Positions 3,783 to 29,676 of a DNA stretch of 47,117 bases are shown here, one piece after another. A model generated the notes under the pieces. The model saw only the letters and a list, made by a program, of their open reading frames with translations, did no database searches and had not been told where the DNA came from. The stretch comes from Pirellulales bacterium. GTDB lineage: Bacteria > Planctomycetota > Planctomycetia > Pirellulales > JADZDJ01. The stretch lies in the NCBI GenBank assembly GCA_035656635.1, contig DASRSD010000024.1:1-47117 (forward strand), given 5' to 3'. Position 1 is the stretch's first letter; each line of letters opens with the position of its first letter. The translations under genes and the position numbers were made by a program.

Positions 3783-3943
3783 CCGCGGCTGCATTTACCG
3801 AATACATGCTGCGTCGCCGATGCGCATCTTCGGGGCCCCTTCACATCACAATGGCTTGCCGTTTCGCACATCGCCGTGCTAACTCTGGAAGCACTGCTTC
3901 GGGCTGTTAGGCCGAACTGTCGGACCGAAAATTTACGGAAGAC

Positions 3944-6104: not shown

Positions 6105-6133
6105 AAAAAGGGGGAAGCCATCGGCTTTCCCCC
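6105..6133 (-). terminator. Intrinsic terminator of the 1.4-kb structured RNA
   Basis: On the minus strand a stem of GGGGG, AA and GCC (6133 to 6123, one bulged base) pairs with GGC, TT and CCCCC (6119 to 6110) around a three-base loop and runs into TTTTT (6109-6105). This is a textbook Rho-independent terminator placed between the structured RNA and the start of the 232-aa gene. Leaky termination would let the gene be expressed. Confidence 0.75.
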
Positions 6134-7515
6134 AGCGCAAATCCTTGGCTCGAAGCTTTTTCCATAGCGCTGCCGAGTCGTTCGACAGACGCTTTCGATT
6201 ACGTCAAAAGCTCCCAGAAACCTCCACGAAAACCAAACCGTAGACGTTCTGGAACACCTCTTTTGAATGCCAACGCCGCACGGTGGCGGCGTGCCTGCTA
6301 GTTTCCTAGCAGCACGCCGCCCGATTCCATACGTGTTGCATCCTAAAAACCGCGAGATGAACGCCATCCGTGCAAAGGCACACGTGTGGCGTCCACCTCA
6401 ACTCGCCGCCAAAGGACTGTTCCTCGCCAGAGGAACACTCGTTTGACCACTCTGCTTCCAACCAAGGAATGCCCAAGGCAGCGGCGGCCCAAAGCCACCG
6501 TGCCCTGCGCACCGAATCTTCTGACTGGCTCTAGGCCAGTCCCCGCTTTCGTCGGCTTAGGTATCGGGTTACCGGCCCGATACAGCACGATCCGTGAGTG
6601 CCTTCCCACGACAATCGCCAAGTGCATCACCATGCTTCCGCATGACAGCGCACTTGCTTTCTACTTGCGGGCCACTCCCAGACTGCTGCGTTTGAATTAC
6701 CTGGTTGATACCAGGCGCCGATTACCAATCGGTAGCAACAGTCCTTCCTGCGTTAGCCATTCTCGTTATCTGCATGATCTCGTGGCTAGTCGGTGTGACC
6801 CGACGAGGCCAATCGCTCTATGCGGAGCCGCCAGGCTCCCATACTTTCCGCCATGTGAAATTTTGCACACGGCGATTTCAAAGTGCCGAAACTAGAAGCG
6901 CACTTTTACCAAATGAGCATTGGCCGTTCACCGTGTCGTGCAATCTATTGGCTGCACGACACCATTTCGGCGTCGACTTCATGCAAACTGACCGGTAAGC
7001 GCTTTCGCGCCTTTCCACGTTGAGCTATTTGCTGCCCAAGACTTGCTTGGGACACCGGAGATCTCACTCTCCGGCACGGCACATTGCTATGCGCATGACT
7101 CCCGTGACCGGCGCGCGTTAAACGGCCCACTATGTGGGACCGAATCCCGCGGGTGGATTTGAACTGCTAAATGAATGGCAGCTCTCACCAACTTCGAGGA
7201 TGACGGGTCGCCGGCTGGCGACTATGTCCGCATCGCCCTGATTCAACAACAACCAAGGTGAGAACCTATCGGATAGAATCGTGAGATTACTCGTCTGGGC
7301 TACAAAGCCAGCCGGATTACTTCACGAAGCCTCCATCGAGCACGAGCAAGCATGTCTCCATGCACTCGGCTCTACCGGCAGAAAGCGTGACGGTTGGTAA
7401 ATCTCCGTCCCCTTAGCGTGGTTGGTAGCCACGTTTACCGGGTGCTGTCCCCAATCAGAAGACCGTTTCAAAGCTCTACGAACATTGAAAGTCGAAGGGT
7501 ATCCGACCCCTTCTG
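6105..7515 (-). ncRNA. Predicted ~1.4-kb highly structured noncoding RNA
   Basis: About 1.4 kb without a credible gene on either strand, but packed with hairpins. On the minus strand it opens with a stem (7494-7499/7508-7513) right at the predicted start and closes with an intrinsic terminator. Stems seen between (plus coordinates): 7417-7433 inside 7396-7439; 7350-7363 (loop GAGA on the RNA); 7207-7222; 7123-7142; 7055-7074; 7035-7051; 6999-7010 (GAAA); 6933-6962 (10 bp); 6824-6839; 6789-6804; 6700-6715; 6631-6644 (GGAA) inside 6620-6655; 6561-6583 (8 bp); 6524-6540; and 6285-6321 (16 bp with one bulge, GAAA). GNRA loops appear on the minus strand only, which sets the direction. It does not look like RNase P RNA, tmRNA, rRNA or a group II intron (no domain V). 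Large ornate RNAs such as GOLLD, ROOL or HEARO are comparable in style but, as I know them, shorter. Confidence 0.7.
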
Positions 7516-7945: not shown

Positions 7946-8279
7946 GTTCTTCCTGCTGCGCCGCCTTCAACGGATTCGCAGACTCTGAATTCACTACTTG
8001 CTGCCGTCGAAGATATGCTTGGATCAATCCCAGCCGCAACGCCTCATATGCCGGTCCACCGGTCGATTGCAGATGCCGATAGCGCTGTTGCGCAAACGGT
8101 GCAGCCGCGGCGACGGCGGCGTGTTCCAGCTCGCCGCACCGCTCGCCAGGCAGATGGGCTAGATATTCGCGCAGCTTTTGGAATTCATGGTTCAATGCGT
8201 CGGCGGATTCAACCTGGGCTGGGGCGCGATGACGCACCAACGTTGGCGATTCGTTGATTTCCGCTCGCTCGCTCAACAA
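7896..8279 (-). CDS. Helical hypothetical protein overlapping the rep 3' end
   Basis: A 127-aa frame starting at TTG 8279 (or TTG 8276), overlapping the last 70 bases of rep in another frame. It looks like a genuine protein: mostly helical and charged, with FQKLREYLAHLPGERCGELE and AQQRYRHLQSTGGPAYEALRLGLIQAYLRRQQ. No domain is recognized. Two readings are possible: a translationally coupled small gene after rep, or the real C-terminal part of Rep separated by a frameshift, because the last residues of Rep in its own frame (SSRPSPG) look low-complexity. Ribosome-site support for the TTG start is weak. Confidence 0.5.
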   Translation of the reverse strand: MLSERAEINESPTLVRHRAPAQVESADALNHEFQKLREYLAHLPGERCGELEHAAVAAAAPFAQQRYRHLQSTGGPAYEALRLGLIQAYLRRQQVVNSESANPLKAAQQEEHERLDCQTQRAVDPTG

Positions 8280-9381
8280 ACCGCTTGGCCACCACGTAAT
8301 TCTTGCGAATCGCATTGACCAAAAACCCCGGCGCGTTGCGGCTGATCCGTTGGTCGGCGCGCCGCACCAGCCAATCGAACCAGGCGAGTTTTTCGCGGAT
8401 TTGTGTTTCTGGACAAGAAGCGACGAGATTATGAGCGGTTTGCGAATGGACGCCGCGCTGGACCAATTCGTCAACCAATGGATTGGATTGCTCGGGTTGT
8501 ACGGCACCGTTTGCCACAGCAGTTTTTTCGGCAATTTCAATCGACCAGGCGCCGGGCGCTTGTTTGCTATAGCGTGGCGAGTGGATTACGCCGACCGTTT
8601 GTAGTTCGTCGAGCGCCGGCTTGAGCCGAGCTTTGAGTTGGCCGGTGTCATAGTTCCGCGACAGGCCAATCTTCTCGAAGGCGAACGTTTTGAGGTCAAA
8701 CGTCCAAACAGGCCGGTGGTAAAACCGCTTGGTCAAAAACCGGTAGGCCCGCTTGGCGGCTGGCCGCTTGAGCGACCGATACACGCCGAAATCGAGCCGG
8801 TTCAAATAACCACTCTGGAAGCTCTGAAAGAAGGCTTCGTTCCACATGAAGTAACTTTCGTCACTGTCATCACCGGTGGCCTTGCGCCGGCCGTCTCGAA
8901 CGCGGAAGTAATCGATCACCCCCAGGGCTTCGCGATCGGTGAACACTTTTTTGGCGTTGTCCCACCAACCGCTGGTGTAGTAAATCGAGACGCCCTTCCA
9001 GCGGCACAGCGATTCTTCCAATCGCTCATAAGCCCAACTGCGGTTCTTCCAGCCCAGGATTTGAATCAACTGGTGCCGAGTGAAGGAAACTTTGGACTGC
9101 GTGAAGTTGTTGTGCTGGGCCGTGCGCTGAATCAGGCCAAACAGCACCTCATCGTCGATGGCGGTGGGCAAGCCAAACTTGTCGCTGCCGCTGACGGTCA
9201 CTTTGCGATGGATGATCTGGCCGGTGCGCCAGTCCTCAATCGTGTCCTCGAATTCGATTGTCTTGACGCCAGAGGGCGCCTTGTCGCTGAGTAGTGAAAC
9301 CGGGAATTCCGCGAGGTTCCCGTTATCAATCGCCGCCTCGAATTCTTTGGGATGGCGATTTACCGATGAATTGCTTTTCAT
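8209..9381 (-). CDS. Replication initiator protein A (RPA-type, plasmid Rep)
   Basis: Initiator of plasmid-type replication, 390 aa, binding iterons to open the origin. The region about residues 70-300 (FGLPTAIDDEVLFGLIQRTA, FTRHQLIQILGW, RLEESLCRWKGVSIYY, RRSLKRPAAKRAYRFL-like stretch, WTFDLKTFAFEKIGL) matches the winged-helix replication initiator A family as I know it. The start ATG 9381 follows GGGGG at close range. Six iterons lie upstream at 9493-9647, and the parA region is divergent beyond them, giving a compact replicon. The C-terminus runs into an overlapping frame (see 7896-8279). A rep gene inside a tRNA-integrated element means it can probably also replicate as a plasmid. Confidence 0.85.
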   Translation of the reverse strand: MKSNSSVNRHPKEFEAAIDNGNLAEFPVSLLSDKAPSGVKTIEFEDTIEDWRTGQIIHRKVTVSGSDKFGLPTAIDDEVLFGLIQRTAQHNNFTQSKVSFTRHQLIQILGWKNRSWAYERLEESLCRWKGVSIYYTSGWWDNAKKVFTDREALGVIDYFRVRDGRRKATGDDSDESYFMWNEAFFQSFQSGYLNRLDFGVYRSLKRPAAKRAYRFLTKRFYHRPVWTFDLKTFAFEKIGLSRNYDTGQLKARLKPALDELQTVGVIHSPRYSKQAPGAWSIEIAEKTAVANGAVQPEQSNPLVDELVQRGVHSQTAHNLVASCPETQIREKLAWFDWLVRRADQRISRNAPGFLVNAIRKNYVVAKRFVERASGNQRIANVGASSRPSPG

Positions 9382-9769: not shown

Positions 9770-9931
9770 AACTTGCCAGCCAGCCGGCAAGCTTGCTGAC
9801 AAGCTGACATGAATGCCTGCCGGAAATCTTGCTTGCCATGTGGACTGCCTGATTGCTTGTCGGCTGGCATTCCAGGCAGTCTGCTGAAAAACATGCTTGC
9901 CAGATTGCCGGCAGGCTGGTATTTGCCAGAT
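9770..9931. repeat. Repeat-rich centromere-like region upstream of parA
   Basis: The 160 bases before parA repeat TTGCC(A/G)G in both directions (for example 9773-9779, 9784-9791 inverted, 9832-9838, 9896-9903, 9905-9911, 9922-9928), plus an inverted pair GACTGCCTG (9843-9851) / CAGGCAGTC (9873-9881). Such arrays next to parA usually form the partition site and the operator of the par operon. Confidence 0.5.
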
Positions 9932-10621
9932 ATGATGATTTCGGTGACGAATTTTAAGGGCGGGGTCGGCAAGACGACGGTTGCCGTCCATTGTGCCATG
10001 TGGTGTGCCAGCCAAGGGATCACAGTCGGTTTCATTGACGGCGATACACAGGCCTCCAGCAGCCAGTGGCTCGCCGAAGCGCAACCCGATTTGCCGTGCC
10101 GACTGGTGACGACGCCCGAAGAATGTTTGGCCGCCGCGCGAGAATTGTCCGACCAGTGTGATGTGATCGTCGGTGATGGCCCGGCAGGATTAGGAGAAAT
10201 CAGCCGCACGCTGTTAATCCTTTCGGAAATCGCGATCATTCCCGTCACTCCCAGCGCGCTGGACATCCGCAGCGTCCAGCAGGCGATTTCGGTCCTCAAA
10301 TTCGCGAAAGAATTAAATCTGGGCCGGCCTGAAGGCTGGCTGGTTCTGAACCGGATGCGAAAGCGAGACACCATTAGTCGCGAGCTGATCGCCACCGCGC
10401 CGCAACTTGGTCTCCGCGTTGGTAATACATCGATCCGCGATCTGCAAGCCTACCGCGACGCCGTACAACAGGGGACAGTCGTGATGCGAATGGGGCTACG
10501 GGCCGCTGGAGCGGCACGGGATATGGAGCAGCTTTTTCAAGAGATTCTTAGCGAGCGGTTGCGCGGAATTGTCGGCAATCGGAATCAATCCATGAACTTC
10601 AAGAGGGCTCAAAATGGCTGA
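9932..10621 (+). CDS. parA: ParA-family partition ATPase
   Basis: ATPase that positions plasmid copies before division, 229 aa. It starts MMISVTNFKGGVGKTT; the deviant Walker A KGGVGKT covers residues 9-15 with the signature lysine at 9, and the Walker B-type VGDGPAG follows near residue 82. The start ATG 9932 is preferred; the longer upstream frame runs through the repeat region and is not protein-like. It is a short ParA without an N-terminal HTH (type Ib), which usually depends on a small partner for DNA binding. That partner is encoded by the next gene, whose start overlaps this stop by eight bases. Expression is probably autoregulated through the repeats upstream. Confidence 0.92.
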   Translation: MMISVTNFKGGVGKTTVAVHCAMWCASQGITVGFIDGDTQASSSQWLAEAQPDLPCRLVTTPEECLAAARELSDQCDVIVGDGPAGLGEISRTLLILSEIAIIPVTPSALDIRSVQQAISVLKFAKELNLGRPEGWLVLNRMRKRDTISRELIATAPQLGLRVGNTSIRDLQAYRDAVQQGTVVMRMGLRAAGAARDMEQLFQEILSERLRGIVGNRNQSMNFKRAQNG

Positions 10622-11015
10622 CCGGCGTTCTTTGGCACAAGCGATCGAATTGACGCCCAGCACCTTGGCGTTTATCCAGGGTGGAGCGGCGGCAGAGCCC
10701 AGCGAAAATCAGTCCGCTATTGTGTCAAAGCCACTAGTAACCAAGCAACGCGGCACTAAACCGCGGAAAACGCCACTGGCCGGATCGGCTGGAACCAGCA
10801 ATGGGCAATCCAGCCAGCCTCACAGTGAAATCGCCCCCGAAACGCCCGCTGTCGAAACGATCTTAGCGTCGCTGACGACCCGCATCCGCCCATCCACCGC
10901 CGAGGCTTTGCGACGTTTTTGTCTGGAAAACAAACTCCGTCGGCAAAAGCCGGACAGTGTCCAAGAAATCGTCCAGAATTCGCTGGATGGATGGCTCAAA
11001 GCGCATGCGTCGTGA
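10614..11015 (+). CDS. Partition partner / centromere-binding protein (RHH-like C-terminus)
   Basis: A 133-aa protein overlapping parA by eight bases, so the two are translationally coupled. The N-terminal two thirds are Ser/Pro/Thr/Lys-rich and probably flexible (possible ParA-stimulating tail). The C-terminal ASLTTRIRPSTAEALRRFCL ... VQEIVQNSLDGWLKAH has the strand-helix-helix pattern of ribbon-helix-helix DNA-binding proteins. By position it should bind the repeats before parA and act as the ParB-like partner. It is not a true ParB/Spo0J (no CTPase motif). It is convergent with the 525-aa gene, 47 bases away. Confidence 0.72.
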   Translation: MADRRSLAQAIELTPSTLAFIQGGAAAEPSENQSAIVSKPLVTKQRGTKPRKTPLAGSAGTSNGQSSQPHSEIAPETPAVETILASLTTRIRPSTAEALRRFCLENKLRRQKPDSVQEIVQNSLDGWLKAHAS

Positions 11016-21800: not shown

Positions 21801-24554
21801 GTGGTCGCATTGAATTTACTTCTCGGCGCAAGCGTTTCAACGCTGTGGGCGGCCATTGCCAGCGTGTGGCTTGCTGTGGCGTCTTATTCGGTTCTTGGCG
21901 CCAAGGGAAAAGGGGGCGCGGGCACCGTCGATGGCAGTTATTACGTCAGTCTTACCTCGGAATCCTATTACACCGATGGCGGGGAGCCGCCAGGCAAATG
22001 GTTCGGCCAGGCCGCCCGCGCACTGGGACTCGTCGGCACGGTCGATCGAGATCCGCTGCGAAATCTGCTGGCCGGCATGAGCCTCGATGGCAAGACCGAG
22101 CTGGTGAAGATTCAGCACTCCAAAACTGAAAAGCGGCGCAGCCGAGCACCGGGCTTCGATGTGACGTTCAGTGTCCCAAAATCGGTCTCCGTGGCGTTCG
22201 CGCTCTCAGGCGAAAACACACGCAAGATCATTCGCGCGGCAATTGATCGTGCAACGCTTGATGTGCTTTCGTTCGCGGAATCAACGTTACCGCTGGCACG
22301 GCGCGGCAAATGCGGAACACAGCAAGAAGCAGGCAAGCTGGTTTGTGCGCTGTTTGACCATTCAACTTCCAGGGCCGGTGATCCCCAATTGCATCGACAC
22401 TGCGTGATCGTCAATCTCTGCCAGCGGCAGGATGGTACCTGGAGGACGATCAATTCCAAATTGCTGGCAAGCTGGGTAAGGACTCTCGGGCCTGCCTTCC
22501 GCCTGGCACTCGCCAAGGAATTACGAGAAAAGCTGGGCTACGAGCTATATCGACCGCTGCTGAAGAGCGGCAAGCGTTCAACCAGTTTTGAAATTCGCGG
22601 AATTTCCAAACGGGTTTGCCAGCATTGGTCGAGCCGCCGCGGGCAATTGCTCGATGTCGCCAGTGGCAAAGAGTTTGAAATCCTGGGCGGCGTGACCAGC
22701 GCTAAGGCACGCGAGCGCGCGAATCTGCTATCGCGTCAAAGTAAAGCAAAAGTTCTGCCGCTGGCCGTATTGCTGGAAGGTTGGCGTAACACCGCCCTCA
22801 GGCTTGGCATCAATCTCGATGAGATCACCAAGCTAGTCCGGCCGTTCAAAGCGCAGAATGTCGAAGCAGCTTATCGCAAGGCCTGGACTCGCGCGCTCCG
22901 GGAGCTAACTGAGCAGCATGCACACTTTAGCAACCGTGAACTGATTCAAAAGATGTGTGAGGCGCTGCAGACGACAGCCATCGGCTTGGATCAGTTATTG
23001 GCGTGGGTCGACCGAGATCTTGCGCACCACAAAGACATCGTTCAACTCAAGCAATTCGAGAACGAAGATCACTATACGACGCGTGAGATGTGGCAGCTCG
23101 AAGAAAAACTGCTCGCCGCAGCAGAACGTCTCACAAAGGCAACTGGTCCAGTGCTGGATTCCAGCTCAATTGATCTCGTGATTCGTCGCCGCAAAACTAT
23201 TTCACCGGATCAGGAGAAAGCCGTTCGCGAGCTACTTGGATCTTCATCGCGATTGCGGATTCTGGCCGGCGTCGCGGGATCGGGCAAATCATTTACACTT
23301 GACGCCATGCGCTCGGGATTGCAGCTTGCCAATTATACAGTGATCGGTGGCGCCTTGGCCGGCACGGCCGCTGAAGAGCTGCAGAAAGCCTCCAAAATAA
23401 AATCACGTACGGTGGCCAGTTATCTCTGGCATCTTGATAAATCGACTCTGACCAAAGTGCGCGACCGAGTCATCCATGATGCGAAGCAACTCATTCGCGC
23501 CGCTTTCGGCAGGCCAACGGCCAAATTTAACGGAGTGAAGGTCGGTTCCAACACGGCCCTGGTCGTGGACGAAGCCGGGATGCTGGACACAAGAACGCTG
23601 TATCGCCTTATTCGCATCGCCGAACGTAAGGGATCGACTTTGATTCTCGCTGGAGACGACAAACAGCTCGCGCCGATTGAAGCCGGCGCGCCGTTTGGTT
23701 ACTTGCTGAAAAAACATGGGCACTCGTTTCTTGCCGAAAACCGACGCCAGCAAGATGCCGCTGATCGCAAAGCAGTCGCCATGCTTCGCGCAGGCAAGGG
23801 GATCGAAAAAATGTTGCAAGGTTATGCCGAACGGGGCTGTCTAACAGTGGCCAAGGATAAATCATCGGCCGTCAACCAACTTGTCAAAACGTGGGCAGCC
23901 AACGGCGGAAAAAAGCGTCCCCAGGAACATGTCATCTTTACGGAGACTCGGGCTGAGGCCGAAGTGGTGAATCGCCTTTGCCAGCGCGAGCGGCTCAAAT
24001 CGCTGAAAATCATGCCGTTGGTGCGTGTGCGAATCAACGGACAATCATTCCACCTCGGGGATCGAGTGAAATTCAACGAGCCCTTGGGAAAATACTCCAT
24101 CCGCAACGGGTATCGCGGGAAAGTCGTGCGCATCAATCCGACCATCGGATTCTTGGGCACGATCACGATCAAGCTGGACAAACCGTTGCCGAAGCGCACC
24201 ATCTTCTCCAAAACCATCGACATCGTGACGATCCCAGTCCACAAGCTGCGTGGGGGCAAAATCAGCTTGGGCTATGCGTCATCCACACACACTGGGCAAG
24301 GGCAGACCGTGAAAAACAGTTATCTGCTCTTGGGTGGCGCCATGACCTCGCGCGAAATCGCCTACGTCCAAGCGACCCGCGCCAAACATAAAACGCAGAT
24401 CTTCACCGACGAATTGCACGCCGGCAAAGACCTGAAAGATCTTGCGCGCGCCGTCGAGAAATCAAAAGCCAAGAACTTGGCCCGCGACGTGGGCTTAAAG
24501 AACTCCGATCACCAGTTGGTTCAACGCCTGGAGATTGAACGCGGCCGCTCCTGA
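21801..24554 (+). CDS. MobF (TrwC/TraI) relaxase-helicase
   Basis: Nicks oriT, stays covalently attached to the DNA and unwinds it for transfer; 917 aa. Relaxase domain about residues 45-330: paired tyrosines Y47-Y48 and Y56-Y57 (SYYVSLTSESYYTDGGE) are nucleophile candidates, PGFDVTFSVPKSVS follows, and the metal-binding histidines are in FDHSTSRAGDPQLHRH, ending at His198 and His200. Helicase domain from about 475: Walker A GVAGSGKS at 490-497, Walker B VVDEAGM, GDDKQLAPIEAGAPF and THTGQGQTV. An unusual hydrophobic N-terminus (about residues 2-33) precedes the tyrosines, where other MobF proteins start almost directly with the catalytic region. The start is GTG 21801, with AGGTGA just upstream. 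Confidence 0.92.
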   Translation: MVALNLLLGASVSTLWAAIASVWLAVASYSVLGAKGKGGAGTVDGSYYVSLTSESYYTDGGEPPGKWFGQAARALGLVGTVDRDPLRNLLAGMSLDGKTELVKIQHSKTEKRRSRAPGFDVTFSVPKSVSVAFALSGENTRKIIRAAIDRATLDVLSFAESTLPLARRGKCGTQQEAGKLVCALFDHSTSRAGDPQLHRHCVIVNLCQRQDGTWRTINSKLLASWVRTLGPAFRLALAKELREKLGYELYRPLLKSGKRSTSFEIRGISKRVCQHWSSRRGQLLDVASGKEFEILGGVTSAKARERANLLSRQSKAKVLPLAVLLEGWRNTALRLGINLDEITKLVRPFKAQNVEAAYRKAWTRALRELTEQHAHFSNRELIQKMCEALQTTAIGLDQLLAWVDRDLAHHKDIVQLKQFENEDHYTTREMWQLEEKLLAAAERLTKATGPVLDSSSIDLVIRRRKTISPDQEKAVRELLGSSSRLRILAGVAGSGKSFTLDAMRSGLQLANYTVIGGALAGTAAEELQKASKIKSRTVASYLWHLDKSTLTKVRDRVIHDAKQLIRAAFGRPTAKFNGVKVGSNTALVVDEAGMLDTRTLYRLIRIAERKGSTLILAGDDKQLAPIEAGAPFGYLLKKHGHSFLAENRRQQDAADRKAVAMLRAGKGIEKMLQGYAERGCLTVAKDKSSAVNQLVKTWAANGGKKRPQEHVIFTETRAEAEVVNRLCQRERLKSLKIMPLVRVRINGQSFHLGDRVKFNEPLGKYSIRNGYRGKVVRINPTIGFLGTITIKLDKPLPKRTIFSKTIDIVTIPVHKLRGGKISLGYASSTHTGQGQTVKNSYLLLGGAMTSREIAYVQATRAKHKTQIFTDELHAGKDLKDLARAVEKSKAKNLARDVGLKNSDHQLVQRLEIERGRS

Positions 24555-24579
24555 GCTCTCGGCTGAACGCCCCGCTTAT

Positions 24580-24834
24580 ATGCATTTTATGAATAACTTC
24601 TTACGCGACCTCGGCATCTCCGCTTCGGATTTAGTGCAAATGTCGACATTCCTCAATTTCGCGGCGGGCGTCGTAATTTTACTGTTCGCCTGGGGCTTTT
24701 GGCACTGGTCGCAAGACAGCAGCCGAGCACCGCCTCCCGTGCGTGGGCGCAGGTTGCAATCCACCGACGAGGCGCGGGCTGTCGCCCAACGCCGCTTAAA
24801 GCGGCACCAAACCGAGGAAGAGGAACAATCATGA
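24580..24834 (+). CDS. Small single-span membrane protein (transfer region)
   Basis: An 84-aa protein with one clear membrane segment (about residues 21-42, FLNFAAGVVILLFAWGFWHW) and a basic, Arg-rich cytoplasmic tail rich in acidic residues at the very end. ATG 24580 is used; ATG 24589 is also possible. It starts 26 bases after the relaxase stop and overlaps the next gene by ATGA. Lying between relaxase and coupling protein, it may anchor or recruit one of them. No family is recognized. Confidence 0.6.
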   Translation: MHFMNNFLRDLGISASDLVQMSTFLNFAAGVVILLFAWGFWHWSQDSSRAPPPVRGRRLQSTDEARAVAQRRLKRHQTEEEEQS

Positions 24835-25211
24835 CCAGTGCTTTGAATATCGTCCGCTTACTCGTGATCGCCCTGGCGACGCTCTTCATGATCACCGCCA
24901 TTCGTCTGTTGTTGCTGACGCACTTCGTCCAATACGCAGTGCTAGTAGTACCCATCGTACTGTGGAAAGTATCGCTGTATTTCGGCCGTGTGCTGTTGGG
25001 AAATAATCCAGACGACACCGGGGCGCAACTTTGGATCGGAGTGATGTTTATCGTGGTAGCGGTCGTGGCTCTGAATGCGGTCGGCTTTGTGCCACCTGCA
25101 TTGCGCTGGCCTCGACTACCAACCATGAAAATGACCAAGCGCCGTAAGTACACTCCGACTCGGCGATCGGCGCCGCCGGTTCGGTCACGTTTCCGCGCCA
25201 CCAGGAGATAA
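24831..25211 (+). CDS. Multi-span small membrane protein (possible coupling-protein anchor)
   Basis: A 126-aa protein with about three membrane segments (residues 6-28, 32-52 and 66-88) and a strongly basic C-terminal tail (MKMTKRRKYTPTRRSAPPVR). It is translationally coupled to the preceding gene (ATGA) and ends four bases before the coupling ATPase. The latter lacks the N-terminal membrane domain usual in TraD/TrwB/VirD4, so this protein may supply it as a separate subunit. That idea is inferred from size, topology and position only. Confidence 0.62.
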   Translation: MTSALNIVRLLVIALATLFMITAIRLLLLTHFVQYAVLVVPIVLWKVSLYFGRVLLGNNPDDTGAQLWIGVMFIVVAVVALNAVGFVPPALRWPRLPTMKMTKRRKYTPTRRSAPPVRSRFRATRR

Positions 25212-25215
25212 TTCG

Positions 25216-26760
25216 ATGTTTCAACGAAAGCGGCAACCCGTGAGTCAGCCTGCCGGAGACGAACCGTGCCAACTTGATGGCGATCCACTGATCCAGTGGG
25301 GTGAAGTGCCGTTGCCCGCCAGCGACGCGACTGCGGGATTCGTGGCGTTCGGCGCCCCCGGCAGTGGAAAATCCATCATGCTACAGTTGCTGGAGCAAAG
25401 CGTGCTGCCACGCATCCCGGCTGGGAACGACATGCGGGCGCTGGTTTACGATGCCAAGGGAGATGCAACTTCACGGTTGGCGGCCGTTTGTCCGCACGTC
25501 GAACGACGAAACTCCAATCCGTTTGACCAGCGCGGCTGGGCGTGGAACATGTGCGCCGATATCCGCGAGCCGCGCGTCGCCGTCGAGATTGGCTTCACAT
25601 TGATTCCCGAAACGCACGAATCGCAACCGTTTTTTAGCGACGCCGCGCGCGCTTGGCTGATCGGCGTGATGTTGAGTTTTATGTTGACTGGCGCCGATTG
25701 GACATTCGGTGATTTGGTGCGCGTGCTTAAGTCAGAACGGCGGATCAAGGCCGTCTTGAAACGTCATCCCCAAACCCGCGATATCATCGAGCAATATTTT
25801 AGTCGACACGATCAGCGGCTTGTCGCCAATATTATGTCGACCGTGGCGACGAAGTTACTGCGTTTTGAACCAGTCGCCGCGGCCTGGGACACGGCCACGA
25901 ATCGGTTCTCGCTCGAAGACTGGATCAAGGAAAATTGGATTCTGATTTTGGGCAACAGTGAAGCGAGCCGCATTCCGATTGACGCGATCAATCGTTGTAT
26001 GTTTCGGCGCAGCGTTGATCTGCTCTTGGGTCAGTCGGAGAGTTTCACCCGGCAGACGTGGTATTTCTTGGACGAAGTGACCGAGATTGGAGGGCGGCTC
26101 CCGAATCTCGTTTCGTTGATGAAAAAAGGAAGGTCGAAAGGCGGCTGCGTGGCTATGGCAATGCAGTCAATTAGCGCCTTACGTGACCAATCGAATTACG
26201 GCCAGTATTTTGCTTCAGAAATCCTTGGCCAGATCGCGAATCGCTGGATTGGTCGCTTGGAGTGCGTCGATACCGCTGAGTTTCTGTCGCGACTGATCGG
26301 CGATCAGGAACGGACCGTCGTTCACGAGAGTTTTACCAGCGGTAAAAACGGCAATTCAACAACGACCTCCAAGCATTTGGAAACCCGGCGACTGGTGATG
26401 CCCAGCGAACTGATGTCGATCGACGAGTGCAACTACGAAAACGGCATCTCTGGGTACCACGTGATGCGCTCGATTGGCACCTTTAAGGCCAACATCCCCA
26501 GCGACCAGCTTTTCGACGAACTGCTCATACCCCGCGATGCATCGGTGCCCGACTTCGTGCCACGGCCAAGCGAAGCGCAATTCCTGCGTCCATGGACCAA
26601 AGATGACACGCGACGTTTCATCGGCCGGCGTATTCCAAAGTGTCCTAGCCGCGATCGTGACGAAGAACGACGCGACCGCCGGCGCCGTCGTCCGAAGCAC
26701 AAACGCGACCGCGATACCCGAGACGATGAAAAGAAGCGTGACAATGACCGTCAAGCATGA
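25216..26760 (+). CDS. Type IV coupling protein (TraD/TrwB-like ATPase)
   Basis: Ring ATPase that hands the relaxase-DNA complex to a secretion channel, 514 aa. Walker A GAPGSGKS at residues 46-53, DAKGD shortly after (as in TrwB), Walker B WYFLDEVTEIGG with Asp286-Glu287, and the sensor-like GCVAMAMQSISALRDQ. There are no membrane helices: the ATPase core begins near residue 30, whereas VirD4-type proteins carry an N-terminal membrane domain. The last 50 residues are almost purely charged (RDRDEERRDRRRRRPKHKRD), a possible DNA- or relaxase-binding tail. GGAGATAATTCG precedes ATG 25216. Confidence 0.9.
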   Translation: MFQRKRQPVSQPAGDEPCQLDGDPLIQWGEVPLPASDATAGFVAFGAPGSGKSIMLQLLEQSVLPRIPAGNDMRALVYDAKGDATSRLAAVCPHVERRNSNPFDQRGWAWNMCADIREPRVAVEIGFTLIPETHESQPFFSDAARAWLIGVMLSFMLTGADWTFGDLVRVLKSERRIKAVLKRHPQTRDIIEQYFSRHDQRLVANIMSTVATKLLRFEPVAAAWDTATNRFSLEDWIKENWILILGNSEASRIPIDAINRCMFRRSVDLLLGQSESFTRQTWYFLDEVTEIGGRLPNLVSLMKKGRSKGGCVAMAMQSISALRDQSNYGQYFASEILGQIANRWIGRLECVDTAEFLSRLIGDQERTVVHESFTSGKNGNSTTTSKHLETRRLVMPSELMSIDECNYENGISGYHVMRSIGTFKANIPSDQLFDELLIPRDASVPDFVPRPSEAQFLRPWTKDDTRRFIGRRIPKCPSRDRDEERRDRRRRRPKHKRDRDTRDDEKKRDNDRQA

Positions 26761-26805
26761 CCAACCAGTGACAGCTGGCGATCAAAACAATCGGGAGCGC
26801 CTGCG

Positions 26806-27063
26806 ATGAAATCTCGATCATCCATCGAAACAATTTCGGCCAGTTCCGCTGCCAGTTCAGTATCGCTCATTTCCGCCGACGAGCTAGCTACAATTTTGAG
26901 CGTTTCCAAACGCACGATTTGGCGATTGCTCAGCGGTAAGAGGCTGCCTGAACCGTTGCGGATCGGCGGCAGCGTTCGCTGGCGGCGTGAGCAAATCGAC
27001 CGCTGGATCGAACAAGGTTGCCCATCGGCCGCTAGTAGCGGTCCATATCACAATTTGCCCTGA
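26806..27063 (+). CDS. Helix-turn-helix excisionase-type DNA-binding protein
   Basis: An 85-aa protein with a Ser-rich N-terminus and a MerR/excisionase-like winged HTH (about residues 23-65: SLISADELATILSVSKRTIW, then RLLSGKRLPEPLRIGGSVRW). Proteins of this type bind bent sites and act as recombination directionality factors or regulators. It is one of two such genes close to the integrase, the other being at 27984. Which one is the excisionase cannot be decided; the gene nearer the integrase is the better candidate, and this one may regulate the transfer operon that precedes it. Confidence 0.8.
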   Translation: MKSRSSIETISASSAASSVSLISADELATILSVSKRTIWRLLSGKRLPEPLRIGGSVRWRREQIDRWIEQGCPSAASSGPYHNLP

Positions 27064-27118
27064 ATTACGAGCAAGCGGTTGTTTATGGAAACCAATCACA
27101 ATTCCGTTGGAGAAAATT

Positions 27119-27934
27119 ATGAGCGCTAATTCTCAAATCGAATGGACCGATGCAACTTGGAATCCGGTGCGTGGCTGCACAAACATCAGCCCGGGTTGCA
27201 AGCACTGTTACGCAGCAACCTTTGCCGAACGTTTTCGGGGAGTTCCAGGCCATCCCTACGAGCAGGGATTCGACCTTCGCCTGGTTCCCGAAAAACTCGC
27301 TGAGCCACTCAAATGGTCCAAAGCCAAAATGGTTTTCGTCAATTCGATGAGCGATTTGTTTCAGCAGGGTGTGCCGGACAGCTACATCCGGCAGGTCGCG
27401 GTGATAATGCAGATGGCCGATTGGCATACGTACCAGGTGTTGACTAAACGCGCCCAAAAAATGCGAGAGATGCTGCAAACGCAGCTTGGGTACGTTGCCG
27501 GACTCGACCATATCTGGTGGGGTGTCAGCGTCGAAGATCGCAAATACGGTCTGCCGAGGATCGAAGTTCTTCGCCAATCCCCGGCGGCAGTCCGATTTCT
27601 TTCCATCGAGCCACTATTGGAAGACCTGGGAACAATCGATCTGACCGGCATTCATTGGGTCATTGTCGGCGGCGAGAGCGGTCATGGTGCTCGGCCCATG
27701 GAAAAGTCCTGGGTCGTAAGCATTCAAGAGCAGTGCTGCGCCGCCGGTATTCCGTTCTTCTTCAAGCAGTGGGGCGGAGTGCATAAATCAAAAACTGGCA
27801 GATTGCTGGACGGTCAAACATTCAACGAGATGCCGGCACGAACATGCAAAAGTGCGCCGGATCGCACACAACGTGCTGTTCTACTGCGCGAAGTTGGCGG
27901 CTGGAATTTCCAGGAACATTTACCCGTGGCTTGA
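27119..27934 (+). CDS. Phage Gp37/Gp68-family (DUF5131) cysteine-motif protein
   Basis: A 271-aa protein, opening with QIEWTDATWNPVRGCTNISP followed by GCKHCYA: Cys20, Cys27 and Cys30 (C-x6-C-x2-C) could bind an iron-sulfur cluster or zinc, and the TIM-barrel-like body (VLTKRAQKMREML, WWGVSVEDRKYG, RFLSIEPLLED, WVIVGGESGHGARPM) is typical of this family, which is related in layout to radical-SAM enzymes. The exact reaction is unknown. GGAG at 27109-27112 precedes ATG 27119. The three-Cys partner gene often paired with the family is not here. It sits between two excisionase-like genes, presumably as cargo. Confidence 0.88.
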   Translation: MSANSQIEWTDATWNPVRGCTNISPGCKHCYAATFAERFRGVPGHPYEQGFDLRLVPEKLAEPLKWSKAKMVFVNSMSDLFQQGVPDSYIRQVAVIMQMADWHTYQVLTKRAQKMREMLQTQLGYVAGLDHIWWGVSVEDRKYGLPRIEVLRQSPAAVRFLSIEPLLEDLGTIDLTGIHWVIVGGESGHGARPMEKSWVVSIQEQCCAAGIPFFFKQWGGVHKSKTGRLLDGQTFNEMPARTCKSAPDRTQRAVLLREVGGWNFQEHLPVA

Positions 27935-27983
27935 AAGAGGGAAGGCATTTTCTCATTGGTCGGCTTCTAGCGGGAATTCAATC

Positions 27984-28214
27984 ATGAACGGCGAACAACG
28001 TCTAGGTGAACCACAATTGCCTTTGCTGTTGTCCATTAAACAAGCCGCTCGAACGCTGAATCTGTCGGAGCGTACTGTTTGGACACTGGTTCATACTCAG
28101 CAACTACCGCATTTGCGCATCGGTCGCCGACTGCTATTTAGCCGATCGGCTTTGGAAGCATGGATTACACGTCAACAAACTGGGGGCGATCCCAATGCAC
28201 GCGCAATTGGATAG
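27984..28214 (+). CDS. xis: Excisionase-like HTH protein next to integrase
   Basis: A 76-aa protein with a single winged HTH (about residues 18-65: LLSIKQAARTLNLSERTVWT, then LVHTQQLPHLRIGRRLLFSR) of the excisionase/HTH_17 type. It ends 73 bases before the integrase gene on the same strand, the usual place for a recombination directionality factor. It probably bends DNA at the attachment sites and favours excision. ATG 27984 is chosen because the upstream extension overlaps the end of the previous gene and is not protein-like. Related in sequence to the 26806 gene, but not identical. Confidence 0.8.
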   Translation: MNGEQRLGEPQLPLLLSIKQAARTLNLSERTVWTLVHTQQLPHLRIGRRLLFSRSALEAWITRQQTGGDPNARAIG

Positions 28215-28287
28215 AATGATCCAGTCGCCACAGCTTATACAATCCGCTTTTCTTTCGACGAATCCATAACGAAAGGCAAAAAGGACA

Positions 28288-29676
<1,389 letters not shown>

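Follow-up and report, generated by a model that had tools for sequence, protein, structure and literature searches.

Circularly permuted (CP) group II ribozymes were described as a class in 2021 by Roth et al. (PMC8637638). Their hallmark is a D5-D6 segment placed at the 5' end, and the published members are ~900 nt in size, with a linker of 15-86 nt and GGGCG at the 5' splice site (PMC8637638). The RNA on the Polaromonas plasmid pPNAP05 is active in vitro and releases a circle of 32 nt; in P. naphthalenivorans itself, expression was seen and processing was not seen (PMC8637638). The protein associated with CP RNAs, AcpG, was reported to have no homology to any protein class (PMC8637638). Here we examined a 1.4-kb region on the minus strand of contig DASRSD010000024.1 from a Pirellulales bacterium, the whole 47,117-nucleotide stretch being referred to as the window. 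The RNA at 7515-6105 is very probably a CP group II ribozyme, encoded together with its partner AcpG beside the replication and partition genes of an integrated mobilizable element.

A structured RNA with permuted group II domains

The predicted transcript (7515-6105, minus strand) is supported by its fold, covariation, relatives and a second copy. An earlier note on this DNA had proposed that the minus strand encodes one large structured RNA, and this was borne out. The minimum free energy of 7525-6100 on the minus strand was -660 kcal/mol, lower than that of all 21 segments of equal length spaced evenly along the contig. Against 25 dinucleotide shuffles the minus strand gave a z of -10.2, versus -8.1 for the plus strand, and over 32 relatives the minus strand folded at -600.6 kcal/mol versus -493.2 kcal/mol for its complement. 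Compensatory changes in homologues, which the note had named as a check, were present on a massive scale, with double changes in 206 of the 256 consensus pairs (those present in 80% or more of the 32 relatives). A second full-length copy with 83% identity is found elsewhere in the genome, on a different contig. The RNA is common in the order, collinear matches being found in 36 of 396 genomes. As the note had also described, 7515-6105 holds no credible gene, and every stem, loop, promoter and terminator element that it listed is present.

Concerning transcription signals, a sigma-70-like promoter (TTGAGT-17-TATATT, 7550-7522, minus strand) and an intrinsic terminator (hairpin plus U-tract, 6133-6105, minus strand) do lie where the note had placed them, although consensus scans of the region detected such sites no more often than chance. 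One promoter-like site was found in the region versus 0.8 expected, so that the promoter alone is not above chance. Terminators were likewise at chance level in a simple scan, in which the real stem, GGGGGAAAGCC-GAU-GGCUUCCCCC-UUUUU, is longer than the scan counts.

We then consider the class of the RNA. The note had regarded it as not matching a known class, a claim that fails on both Rfam and homology evidence. The Rfam search that it had proposed returned a group II match, an outcome that it had itself named as contrary to its reading. The only match within the RNA was a weak one to Intron_gpII (D5-D6) at 7374-7268, with 32.4 bits, below threshold. Five relatives pass the threshold with 42.8-44.8 bits (cut-off 40), and the plasmids of K2D and Leptolyngbya also exceed it. 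A covariance model, R1, was constructed from the D5-D6-linker of 26 Planctomycetota sequences, in which 21 of 29 D5-D6 pairs show double changes. R1 retrieved the published active RNA on pPNAP05 with an E-value of 4.8e-12, and our boundary rule, when applied to that RNA, gave a circle of exactly 32 nt, identical to the published length. On pPNAP05 the RNA is located apart from trfA rather than behind it. Plasmids of Planctomycetes K2D, Calothrix, Leptolyngbya and Planococcus also gave R1 matches upstream of acpG, whereas the Thermus RNA on pTT8, which is highly diverged, was missed. On the Calothrix plasmid (L083:1634-1769 and 3785-3911), two tandem CP group II RNAs ~2.1 kb apart are followed by one acpG.

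The domains are read in the order D5-D6-linker-D1-D2 on the minus strand. D5 (7375-7336) was recognized by the Rfam Intron_gpII alignment and compensatory changes; it carries the AGC triad at 7371-7369 and a GAGA tetraloop at 7358-7355, the loop that the note had already pointed out. The Rfam search detected no other D5 in the region. D6 (7335-7268) contains the bulged branch-point A at 7274 and the 3' splice site AU at 7269-7268, as indicated by the invariant A104, A109 and T110 of alignment A3 and by covarying stem pairs. It is followed by a 29-nt linker (7267-7239), the predicted RNA circle according to the rule that yields the 32-nt Polaromonas circle, and then by the 5' splice site GGGCG at the start of D1 (7238-7234), which is invariant in alignment A3. 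Both splice sites are thus present in reversed order. EBS1 (AGUUUC, 6893-6888, minus strand), located by its covariation with IBS1, and a D2-like hairpin with the loop CCGGUAA (6583-6560, minus strand) lie downstream of D5-D6. Upstream of D5, a P2-like stem-loop (7433-7416, minus strand) exposes the loop CUACCAA. In a column-pairing test of the P2 loop against every downstream column, the D2-like loop was best, with a mean of 5.2 Watson-Crick pairs out of 8, making it the likely pseudoknot partner. Within D1, the segment 7157-7170 (UUCAAAUCC) forms a T-loop-like motif, whose AAAUCC recurs in many relatives.

IBS1, the last six bases of the linker (GAAUCA, 7244-7239), varies among relatives and covaries with the EBS1 site in a D1 loop of consensus CUUCU-NNNUUC. 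With kinship among the sequences only partly controlled in either statistic, EBS1/IBS1 Watson-Crick pairs exceeded shuffled assignments with z = 10 (76 distinct pairs), and the P2-D2 fit was moderate, with z 4.7 against shuffled loops (62 of 96 sequences). The EBS1-IBS1 signal occurred in the expected register only, and none was seen in shifted registers. Because this pairing covaries throughout the family, back-splicing itself, and not the fold alone, appears from the sequences to be under selection. The window copy forms 4 of the 6 pairs, and the copy with 83% identity carries the same EBS1 and IBS1. The linker has a median of 24 nt in the family and ranges from 12 to 103 nt. Taking into account this variable length and the little sequence shared outside IBS1, we rejected a conserved function for the circle sequence and found no conserved message in it.

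Like the published CP group II ribozymes, the RNA has the order D5-D6-D1-D2, GGGCG and NU splice sites reversed around a short linker, EBS1-IBS1 and P2-D2 loop pairing, no internal ORF, an association with plasmids and an adjoining acpG. It differs in its size (about 1.4 kb versus ~900 nt), in often lying behind an RPA-type repA, and in the orientation of acpG, which is downstream on the same strand here and divergent in Thermus and Polaromonas. The hosts here are Planctomycetota, along with Cyanobacteria, whereas Deinococcus-Thermus, Firmicutes and Proteobacteria are the groups given in the paper's text. The RNA adds to a known class a new representative of larger size, from phyla that this text does not mention. 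A canonical group II intron shares the D5, D6 and D1 elements and the branch-point chemistry, and was ruled out by the domain order with D5-D6 at the 5' end; here the order is permuted, the splice sites are internal and there is no intron-encoded protein. No match to the TIGR04416 reverse transcriptase (RT) was present in the window's own genome.

The AcpG protein

Based on homology, co-occurrence and predicted structure, the gene at 6056-5358 (minus strand) is assigned as acpG. It encodes a protein of 232 aa with a pI of 10.0 (family range 9.7-11.2). AcpG has no Pfam match, and no family in Pfam, NCBIfam or PHROG names it. A profile-profile comparison by hhalign with the Thermus TTHC007 family plus the Polaromonas protein gave an E-value of 7e-11, a match that rests on the family profile rather than on a single sequence. 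The homology is collinear over 172 columns and both families are genetically linked to CP group II RNA, whereas identity is only ~20% and an RT palm-thumb fold is proposed here. Known AcpG proteins mostly outscored 1000 shuffled decoys and unrelated ORFs.

Linkage to the RNA is strong. A member of the acpG family lies next to the RNA at 35 of 44 loci. In named genomes, among loci found by the protein alone, 67 of 70 testable ones had the RNA ~1.2-1.4 kb upstream on the same strand, ten further loci being cut off too near to judge. Among 296 genomes of the order, the RNA was present in 48, acpG in 49 and both in 38 (Fisher P 1e-28). The acpG match consists of two separate pieces in three cases (G114, G165 and G185); for G114 and G185 both pieces lie in one longer open frame of 332-333 aa, with an insertion near residues 106-120. 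Relatives of acpG were also found in bins of Calditrichota (L091), Acidobacteriota (L097), Opitutaceae (L110), Bdellovibrionales (L116), Hydrogenedentes (L131), Omnitrophota (L138) and Thermoleophilia (L161), with the RNA alongside in all except L138. These seven may reflect a wide host range or misbinned plasmid contigs.

AlphaFold models were obtained for the window AcpG (pLDDT 94.5) and for a distant Phycisphaerae member (pLDDT 90.7), the latter from an alignment without the window protein and its nearest relatives, whose Phycisphaerae rows overlap the first alignment. For both models, the best Foldseek matches were RTs of group II introns, G2L4 and retrons, with E-values of 1e-3 to 2e-1, which do not pass 1e-3 and are weak on their own. 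With VIA-align, 8h2h_D ranked first for both (Z 9.7), aligning over 211 residues at 4.8 A for the window AcpG and 195 at 4.2 A for the Phycisphaerae protein. It was followed by 8fli, 8t2r, 6me0 and the GsI-IIC RT, and then by Prp8 (Z about 8) and DRT proteins. In these alignments of predicted models, the match comprises the palm and thumb (about RT residues 105-425), with the fingers outside. A viral-structure search with the AcpG model gave nothing convincing.

The models suggest how the RT motifs may correspond (residues are numbered from Gln2). Strand 27-32 would stand for the RT3 strand, with the invariant Gly31 in place of the catalytic Asp. The hairpin 70-75/78-83, with the pattern Y-x-R-x-x-x-x-F-V-L-L-A, would stand for RYADD; at this position, as assigned from the models, a DD was present in 0 of 72 AcpG members. 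F-x-G-Y-S-I would stand for the F-L-G-Y of RT7. An AcpG-RT profile comparison scored 21.9 versus a null of 14.2 (sd 2.5), which 2 of 150 shuffled nulls reached, and placed the RT7-thumb part in the predicted register with marginal significance.

The modelled structures make it likely that AcpG is a maturase-like, polymerase-dead protein. Taking into account that RTs lead the palm-thumb matches of both models and that the catalytic Asp is absent, AcpG is probably a finger-less, catalytically dead maturase. This interpretation is new, in that the literature searched did not report it. As in group II intron RT/maturases (8h2h_D, 8t2r_D and 6ar1_A), the order is palm-thumb, and the protein is basic and linked to a group II-type RNA; unlike them, AcpG has no fingers, no DNA-binding or endonuclease domain and no catalytic Asp, and is encoded outside the RNA. 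Prp8 resembles it as an RT-like maturase core without polymerase activity that partners a group II-like active site, but is much larger and eukaryotic, and direct ancestry is not implied. If the maturase identity is true, it supplies the expected missing protein cofactor of CP group II RNA and gives a direct biochemical test. AcpG would then show, as a natural example independent of Prp8, how an intron RT can give up polymerisation and persist as a splicing scaffold, and together with its RNA it would be a bacterial parallel to Prp8 and the snRNAs.

Genomic setting

An RPA/TrfA-type repA (9381-8209, minus strand; Pfam match) lies upstream of the RNA on the same strand, with parA and parB-like partition genes (9809-11015, plus strand) divergent from it. 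The 390-aa repA frame stops at 8209, and the homologous C-terminus runs on in another frame to 7896; on the contig of the second RNA copy, repA is one frame of 477 aa. The apparent frameshift (8209-8540), near the 3' end, is either real decay or an assembly error. The rep linkage was seen in 28 of 44 loci among the nearest relatives, but it is not universal: in a wider set, restricted to loci whose upstream sequence extends for 2 kb or more, 19 of 50 showed it.

The region 21801-29676 encodes a TrwC relaxase, a TrwB coupling protein and a tyrosine integrase that overlaps a tRNA-Arg (29551-29625), beyond which chromosomal-type genes such as ScpB are found. This region is the right end of an integrated mobilizable MOBF-type element. 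Together with the rep and par genes, the relaxase, coupling protein and integrase support the earlier proposal that a mobile element carries the RNA. The relative in K2D exists as a free plasmid, circular and of MOBF type. Cultured carriers include Tautonia sociabilis, Aeoliella straminimaris and the K2D strain with its plasmid pK2D_1. Plasmid homologues, which the note had suggested looking for, were found by protein search, and a DNA search of plasmids gave no match. A phage origin was rejected, since phage records contained no matching DNA and viral contigs yielded no relative of AcpG.

Proposed reaction and alternative readings

If the RNA reacts as published for its class, the adenosine at 7274 in D6 would attack the 5' splice site (7239/7238), and the 3' end so freed would then attack the 3' splice site (7268/7267), with a 29-nt RNA circle and a 2'-5' branched ribozyme as the products. 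AcpG, modelled as a group II RT of which palm and thumb remain and whose fingers and catalytic aspartates are lost, would be kept as a maturase, most likely binding, folding or stabilising the CP RNA in trans. Since EBS1 of the branched RNP would be free after release of the circle, one may speculate that the RNP could react in reverse with RNA or DNA that carries an IBS1-like sequence. Such a reaction would be in line with the suggested role of these RNAs in the disruption of nucleic acids by or against mobile elements (PMC8637638). Tentatively, and with somewhat less than even confidence, we propose that the finger-less dead AcpG and the CP group II RNA form a stable two-part RNP, a bacterial parallel to Prp8 and the spliceosomal RNAs, kept on plasmids and integrated elements because the replicon is served by back-splicing or by the branched RNA reacting in reverse with other nucleic acid. 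There is presumably a benefit to the plasmid or element, and this is the least certain part.

The size of the RNA, its lack of an ORF and its mobile element would also suit a new class of large ornate RNA, and the note had seen kinship with GOLLD, ROOL and HEARO. None of the three matched in Rfam 15 at E-values up to 5, while group II D5-D6, splice sites and EBS1-IBS1 are present, and homology to the published CP RNA already refutes this reading, which retains practically no probability. A function of the stretch at the DNA level instead of as RNA, whether as a folded structure or within a replication origin, is very improbable. The stretch is flanked by repA and acpG in a replication module, which would fit such a role, but the strand asymmetry of folding and the group II active-site features argue against it, and linkage to rep is not universal while that to acpG is nearly so. 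For pTT8, a deletion without effect on replication has been reported (PMC8637638). A CP group II ribozyme whose window copy is decaying and has lost back-splicing could account for the incomplete IBS1/EBS1 pairing here and for the seemingly frameshifted repA nearby. With the catalytic landmarks all intact, EBS1 and IBS1 shared with the second copy and acpG itself intact, we consider decay improbable.

As for the protein, AcpG could resemble the RT palm merely through a common RRM-like palm arrangement, with no maturase kin. Unrelated folds can reach a Z near 8, and sequence support is weak, as 2 of 150 nulls attained the observed score. We nevertheless regard this as unlikely and favour the maturase: RTs and Prp8 top the results for both models with palm and thumb in order, the RNA partner of AcpG is a group II ribozyme, which is the ligand of those RTs, and the R74 hairpin and GYSI occur where RT5 and RT7 are expected.
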